Below, in pieces: positions 21,582 to 25,747 of a stretch of DNA of 64,000 bases. Every line of letters starts with the position of its first letter. The first letter of the stretch is position 1. This stretch comes from Natrinema salifodinae (GTDB taxonomy: Archaea > Halobacteriota > Halobacteria > Halobacteriales > Natrialbaceae). The stretch spans positions 248,001 to 312,000 of the forward strand of contig NZ_FOIS01000002.1 in assembly GCF_900110455.1 (NCBI RefSeq), in the 5' to 3' direction. Under the pieces are notes generated by a model. That model was not told where the DNA came from. It ran no database searches and saw nothing but the letters and a program-made list of their open reading frames with translations. Position numbers and translations under genes: made by a program.

Positions 21582-21938
21582 GGGTACTCTCTCGATCGGT
21601 CGACCCGCGTAGATCCTCTCAGAGGCGGCTTTCTGTCGTCACGACGGCGGATTCGGGGTCAGCTATCGTCGATGATGGGTGGGGTCGAGCGGGCAACACC
21701 TACTGCTCGTCAATGAGCGGCGCGTACCGGTCCCGTGGCGGTTCACCGACCGTCGCGCAGCACGAGTAATCGCGTACTGTCGCGACTCGTGCGAGCGAAA
21801 CTGTCCGTCACCGAGGAGATAACAGGGAGTTACGCCCCCGAAAATGCAGGCCGCGAGCAAGGGGGCGAGAAACGGAAAACTGTCCCGCGAGACGGCCCCG
21901 CCGACTCAAGTGCGAACCGGTCTCGAGGCCTAGTGACA
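21582..21938. other. Intergenic region upstream of the pentad-repeat gene
   Basis: 357 bases with no convincing gene. One frame joins the downstream gene (from 21735), but its product up to residue 68 is basic and low in acidic residues, so it is probably untranslated. No strong hairpin or repeat was found. The promoter of the next gene should lie near its 3' end. Confidence 0.5.
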
Positions 21939-23264
21939 ATGGCGAACGAGACACCTCCCACCGACCCCGACGCGCCCGATCAGCGACGGATGACGACCGA
22001 TCCCGAACGCATTAGAGAGTGGGCCGAGGCCCGCGACGCCGTGCCGGTCTCGATCCGCGGCGGCGGCAGCGGCGAGGGGCCGACCCACTCGTTCGCACGC
22101 CGCGACGAGATCAGCGAGGATCACGAGGAGTACACCTGGGACGAGTTCGTCGACCGGTTCCGTGACGAGGATCTGGTCTTTGTCTACCACGAGGAGGACG
22201 AACCGAGCGGCGAGGACCTGGGCTTCTTCGAGATGGTCGAGCGCGACCAGGCCTTCGACCGGGCCGATCTCGGCCGCGACGAACTCGAGGACGCGCTCCG
22301 GCGCGGCGAGACGGTGACGACGGAAGTCGTCGAGACGCAGGTGGTCGAGACCGAAATCGTCGAGCGGGACACGATCGAGAGCGAGGTAATCGACACGGAG
22401 TTAGCTGAACGCGAGGTTGTCGATTCCGAACTGCTGAGCCGCGACGTCGTCGAGACGGAGTTCGTCGCCGACGACCGGCTCGAGGTGACCGTCGACGAGA
22501 CGCGCCTAGACACGATCGAGGAGATCGAACGCTACATCGTCGAGAGCCGCGTCGTCGACGTCGACATCGAACAGGACGAGGCGATCGAGAGCGACGAGAT
22601 CGAGACGGACATCGAACTCGAGAGCGTCCAGCGCTCGATCCTCGAGAGCGACGTCGTCCGCTCGGAGGTGACGACCGACGAGGTGCTCGACCGGGAGGTC
22701 ATCCAGAGCCAGCGCACCGAAGGCGACGCCGTTCGGAGCGAACTCATCGAGCGGCGGATCGTCGAGGAAGAACTGAGCGATCGGTTGCGGATGACCTACC
22801 TCCTCGAGGAGTCCGAACTGATCGAATCCGAGCTCATCGGCAGCGACGTGATCGAGGGCGAGATCATCGACGCCGACGAGTACGGAGCCGCCGAGAGCAG
22901 CGAGATGGGTGCCGAAGCGACCGGTGCCGGCGACGACGCGATGGCGGACGCCGACGTCGGAACCGAACCCGGCGCCGGTGCCGGGGCCGAGACCGGCACC
23001 GAAGCGACCGGCGAGGCGGGCGCGTCGGCGATCGAACTCTCGCGGGACGATCAGGGGAAGGCCGTCCTCGACGAATCGGGCCAGCAGATCGGTATGGTCG
23101 CCGAGATCGAGGGGCAGACGGCCTACATCGATCCGGAGCCGGGGCTGACGGATCGGCTCAAAGCGCGCCTCGATTGGGGCGGCCACGGCGACGACGACTA
23201 TCCGGTCGACGCCTCACAGATCAAAGAGATCACGGACGACGAGGTCGTCGTCCGCAGCGAGTAA
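21939..23264 (+). CDS. Pentad-repeat acidic protein with PRC-barrel-like C-terminus
   Basis: A 441-residue soluble acidic protein that I do not recognise as a whole. Residues 1-75 include the module EYTWDEFVDRFRDEDLVFVY. Residues about 124-316 are nearly forty tandem five-residue units of the form [VIL]-[VI]-[ED]-[TSR]-[ED], for example VVETE IVERD TIESE VIDTE. An Ala/Gly/Thr-rich linker follows, then residues 365-441 (KAVLDESGQQIGMVAEIEG, AYIDPEPGLTDRLKARLDWG) look like a PRC-barrel. The pentads differ from classic A(D/N)Lxx repeats because two adjacent positions are hydrophobic. Some stress proteins (YsnF/DUF2382) pair a PRC-barrel with Val/Glu-rich strands, which is the nearest comparison I can make. 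Role unknown. Confidence 0.75.
   Translation: MANETPPTDPDAPDQRRMTTDPERIREWAEARDAVPVSIRGGGSGEGPTHSFARRDEISEDHEEYTWDEFVDRFRDEDLVFVYHEEDEPSGEDLGFFEMVERDQAFDRADLGRDELEDALRRGETVTTEVVETQVVETEIVERDTIESEVIDTELAEREVVDSELLSRDVVETEFVADDRLEVTVDETRLDTIEEIERYIVESRVVDVDIEQDEAIESDEIETDIELESVQRSILESDVVRSEVTTDEVLDREVIQSQRTEGDAVRSELIERRIVEEELSDRLRMTYLLEESELIESELIGSDVIEGEIIDADEYGAAESSEMGAEATGAGDDAMADADVGTEPGAGAGAETGTEATGEAGASAIELSRDDQGKAVLDESGQQIGMVAEIEGQTAYIDPEPGLTDRLKARLDWGGHGDDDYPVDASQIKEITDDEVVVRSE

Positions 23265-23446: not shown

Positions 23447-25747
<2,301 letters not shown>

Follow-up and report, generated by a model that had tools for sequence, protein, structure and literature searches.

A conserved haloarchaeal protein family built around an undescribed array of acidic five-residue repeats

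One gene of the window, the 64,000-nucleotide stretch of Natrinema salifodinae DNA analysed here, encodes a member of an undescribed, conserved haloarchaeal domain family, and the five-residue code of its repeats violates the rule of the best-known solenoid with this period. Judged from alignments of its relatives, the pentad array is a fixed domain that is neither expanding nor homogenising, and it is not drifting low-complexity sequence. In public records the protein is annotated as hypothetical. We suggest, with a probability of about 0.4, that it serves as a cytosolic tether or scaffold in which the pentads provide an acidic, probably beta-rich spacer between two interaction domains.

Table 1. 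Features of the pentad-repeat gene and its surroundings, in window positions.
Feature	Position	Strand	Basis
Upstream element GAGAAA...GACTCAAGT, conserved in relatives	21867..21911	+	Alignment of 21 relatives
Complete gene, 441 aa plus stop	21939..23264	+	ORF, orthologs with the same start, codon-position pattern
N-terminal domain, residues 17-118, invariant Trp28 and Trp67	21987..22292	+	Homology, AlphaFold
Pentad block 1 with 11 in-register units, residues 125-179	22311..22475	+	Family alignment
Irregular joint, residues 180-199; variable-length insertions nearby in relatives	22476..22535	+	Gap columns
Pentad block 2, residues 200-228, ~5-6 units	22536..22622	+	Family alignment
Register break SVQRS, residues 229-233	22623..22637	+	Translation read directly
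Pentad block 3 with 16 in-register units, residues 234-313	22638..22877	+	Family alignment
Gly/Ala/Glu-rich linker, residues 314-364, length varies among relatives	22878..23030	+	Alignments
C-terminal PRC-barrel-like domain, residues 365-441	23031..23261	+	Weak PF05239 matches
katG, convergent with the pentad gene	23447-25624	-	Same facing arrangement in 17 of 19 loci from Natrialbaceae

The gene lies on the strand, in the reading frame and at the coordinates given by the original prediction. Its ATG start at 21939 is conserved among relatives, while the longer, GTG-started form in the list of open reading frames is not. Orthologs from named Natrinema and Haloterrigena genomes are 73-76% identical and share this start. 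When the repeat region is compared with closer orthologs, third codon positions change ~ 2-5 times as often as second positions, which identifies the plus frame as the coding one.

The five-residue period that was first read from the translation is far above chance. The power of the hydrophobicity signal reaches 22.9 at period 5, against 6.5 for the best of 2,000 shuffles, and shows no excess at periods 3.5, 3.6, 6 or 7. Because the hydrophobic period is 5, a heptad or hendecad coiled coil is disfavoured. The unit had been described as two adjacent aliphatic residues followed by D/E, T/S/R and D/E, and it holds over 127 family members as [VLIT][VIT][ED][TSR][ED], with V, I and T accounting for 61-66% of residues at its two hydrophobic positions. 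Residues 125-313 contain no proline and three glycines, and the net charge of the pentad region is -48 over 189 residues. The first count of almost forty units is too high: residues 180-199 and 229-233 interrupt the register, leaving ~ 32 in-register pentads in three blocks (Table 1).

Block 1 is gap-free across residues 125-171 in all 127 relatives, and block 3 is gap-free across residues 252-311 in 116 of the 127; within block 2, residues 218-221 are absent from about a quarter of relatives. Among relatives that are < 45% identical, block 1 has an in-register identity of 0.45, which drops to 0.28 after a shift of one unit, and for block 3 the corresponding values are 0.295 and 0.159. The higher in-register identity, together with the lack of insertions and deletions in block 1, indicates that each unit has its own place. 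It is this combination, of a block without indels and units that are closer to their own counterparts than to their neighbours, that supports a fixed domain.

Could the pentads belong to a known repeat family? Profile searches of Pfam, NCBIfam and the PDB returned no family match, in line with the earlier view that the repeat is undescribed, and no PDB entry matched the pentads at E values up to 10. The pentapeptide-repeat proteins (PF00805) are the obvious point of comparison, since they share the five-residue period and long uninterrupted arrays and also occur in haloarchaea. If the pentads were a diverged form of the classical right-handed quadrilateral (Rfr) beta-helix of these proteins, the identical period would follow, and the register T-E-V-V-E does resemble [STAV][DN][LF]xx in order. 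With 11 tandem five-residue units in block 1 and 16 in block 3, the array also exceeds the at least 8 that define PF00805. However, PF00805 arrays carry an uncharged residue at i-2 and a Leu/Phe-like residue at i, and the pentads do not: in their best Rfr register, the inward-facing i-2 is charged in 31% of units, i is Leu or Phe in just 21%, and i+1 is hydrophobic in 79%. Genuine haloarchaeal PF00805 arrays (ten loci, 200 units) are charged at i-2 in 2% and hydrophobic at i+1 in 11% of units; these controls were chosen by Leu/Phe at i, so that only their other positions serve as an independent control. A charged residue at i-2 has never been observed in Rfr proteins (PMC7337050), and the haloarchaeal controls indicate that salt adaptation does not relax this rule. 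Moreover, PF00805 matched none of 25 family members at E values up to 1. The distinction from the classic A(D/N)Lxx pentapeptide that was drawn at the outset is thus borne out; no register fits, Rfr membership was rejected, and a diverged Rfr helix is very improbable. Genuine PF00805 arrays are themselves common in haloarchaea, occurring in 36 of 79 genomes, and their longest runs reach 45 units.

The suggested kinship with YsnF/DUF2382 proteins (PF09557), proposed for a supposedly similar layout of a PRC-barrel with a repetitive region, found no support. None of 25 family members matched PF09557 at E values up to 1, and the family was over its cut-off in 0 of 146 Halobacteriales genomes. A single weak DUF2382 match, attributed to chance, shows only a helicase-like reading frame.

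The N-terminal domain, which the original prediction left undescribed, is a recognisable conserved module. It is 37% identical (E 1e-14) to a stand-alone 87-residue Rhizobium protein and also similar to a small Xanthomonas protein; these bacterial homologs, 87-90 residues long, have neither the pentads nor the C-terminal domain. AlphaFold pLDDT values for the N-terminal domain are 43-78 per 10-residue block. The proposed PRC-barrel-like nature of the C-terminus is supported by PF05239, which matches 16 of the 22 members compared at E values up to 1, although even the best match (3.1e-4) falls under the curated cut-off and the domain in the window itself scores 13.9 bits against a cut-off of 21.2. 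There is also a weak match to 1pm3 (MTH1895), and AlphaFold models residues 375-438 as strands and one helix, with pLDDT ~ 50-63 for most. Compared with established PRC-barrel proteins, the domain is distinguished by these sub-cut-off scores and by its terminal placement in a long protein of several domains. In Haloferax, the PRC-barrel proteins CdpB1 and CdpB2 belong to the divisome (PMC12186497), so that binding to other proteins is a plausible role.

The same genome contains nine additional matches to the C-terminal domain, none of them with pentads according to the repeat profile. Elsewhere in this genome, two copies of the domain are encoded close together, at 302415-302947 of contig C3. 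Conversely, two relatives of 261 and 263 residues (L173 and L178) retain both end domains, with short Gly-rich linkers replacing the pentads, and the array is therefore a separable module.

Searching haloarchaeal genomes for the repeat, as had been proposed, placed the full-length, repeat-bearing protein in 117 of 392 Halobacteriales genomes, or about a third (matches with E ≤ 1e-60, tallied by hand). The gene is usually single-copy, with a second copy listed in 7 of the 117. By a BLAST-type search with residues 1-324, the count was 132. Among 295 genomes sampled from the phylum, the full-length protein was not found outside Halobacteriales; the sole match outside the order is weak (E 1.5e-6) and lacks the end domains. 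A search of viral contigs found no relative. Two weak repeat-profile matches look compositional, and both end domains are missing from them.

The beta-branched hydrophobic positions, the absence of proline, the scarcity of glycine and the odd period suggest that the pentads are probably beta-rich. Tentatively, they may represent a new, non-Rfr beta-architecture with five-residue faces, whose adjacent hydrophobic residues pack on opposite sides, possibly between chains. Similarly speculative is a different beta architecture with five-residue faces: the coil might have another size or span two pentads (10 residues), or chains might intertwine as a dimer or trimer in which the neighbouring hydrophobic residues of a pentad face opposite ways. 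The beta-branched units, poor in proline and glycine, are consistent with this, and similarity within block 1 is slightly higher at a shift of 10 than at 5 or 15, a weak hint that comes from one related set of sequences. No such architecture appears in the AlphaFold models, which are of single chains. This proposal concerns the fold and is compatible with a tethering function.

Alternatively, the pentads may be an acidic stretch that is intrinsically disordered, or ordered only under certain conditions, and that takes up a fold when it meets a partner or self-assembles. AlphaFold confidence is very low: pLDDT is 24-33 over the repeats in the full protein (five-sequence alignment), and block 1 alone, with an internal-repeat alignment, gives pLDDT 62, pTM 0.12 and no strand or helix. 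Nearly all pentads have no secondary structure in these single-chain, shallow-alignment models, and a Foldseek search with the low-confidence full model returned nothing below an E value of 0.001. The strong net charge also favours disorder, and the pentads fall on the disordered side of the charge-hydropathy line. However, KatG from the same window, which by its family we take to be a folded enzyme, falls on the same side at a similar distance, and the index is thus non-discriminating in this halophile. Hydrophobics fixed at two of every five positions, a block 1 of invariant length and individually conserved units also argue against disorder, given that drifting disordered repeats do not show such fixed length and unit-by-unit conservation. 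We consider disorder unlikely.

So, what might the protein do? We infer an elongated beta-stack of pentads, end domains that bind proteins, and spacing as the function. As a tether, the ~ 32-pentad array and flexible linker would join an N-terminal domain of bacterial stand-alone type to the PRC-barrel-like domain, and would keep both, with their bound partners, a defined distance apart within the salt-rich cytoplasm. Established are the domain order, conservation, the fixed number and order of units, the homology of the N-terminal domain and the absence of the pentads from some relatives that keep both ends. The tether is favoured by the pentad-less L173 and L178, the occurrence of the C-terminal domain elsewhere without pentads, the free-standing bacterial versions of the N-terminal domain, a period of 5 without a helical period, and a protein start at which direct reading of the translation reveals no hydrophobic signal segment. 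Against it stand the near absence of secondary structure from the pentads in the AlphaFold models and the lack of any lag signal in mean-field DCA (127 sequences, effective 60). The gene neighbourhood suggests no partner either: it is only within Natrialbaceae that a putative AlkA-type glycosylase gene, katG and a RimK-like gene are retained next to the pentad gene, no neighbour is conserved across families, and a partner by neighbourhood was rejected. Nor is an operon supported, as katG is convergent and 4 of 19 loci have the glycosylase gene on the other strand. Being usually single-copy and outside any conserved operon, the gene should be simple to knock out. A structure would reveal if there is a second beta fold with a five-residue repeat, and could provide a salt-adapted repeat scaffold.

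Upstream of the gene, positions 21827-21911 are strongly conserved in relatives and comprise TTACG...TGCAGGCC followed by GAGAAA...GACTCAAGT; an AT-rich TATA box is not obvious there. The latter element, 28-72 bases ahead of the start codon, has a single occurrence in the genome and is possibly a promoter or leader element.
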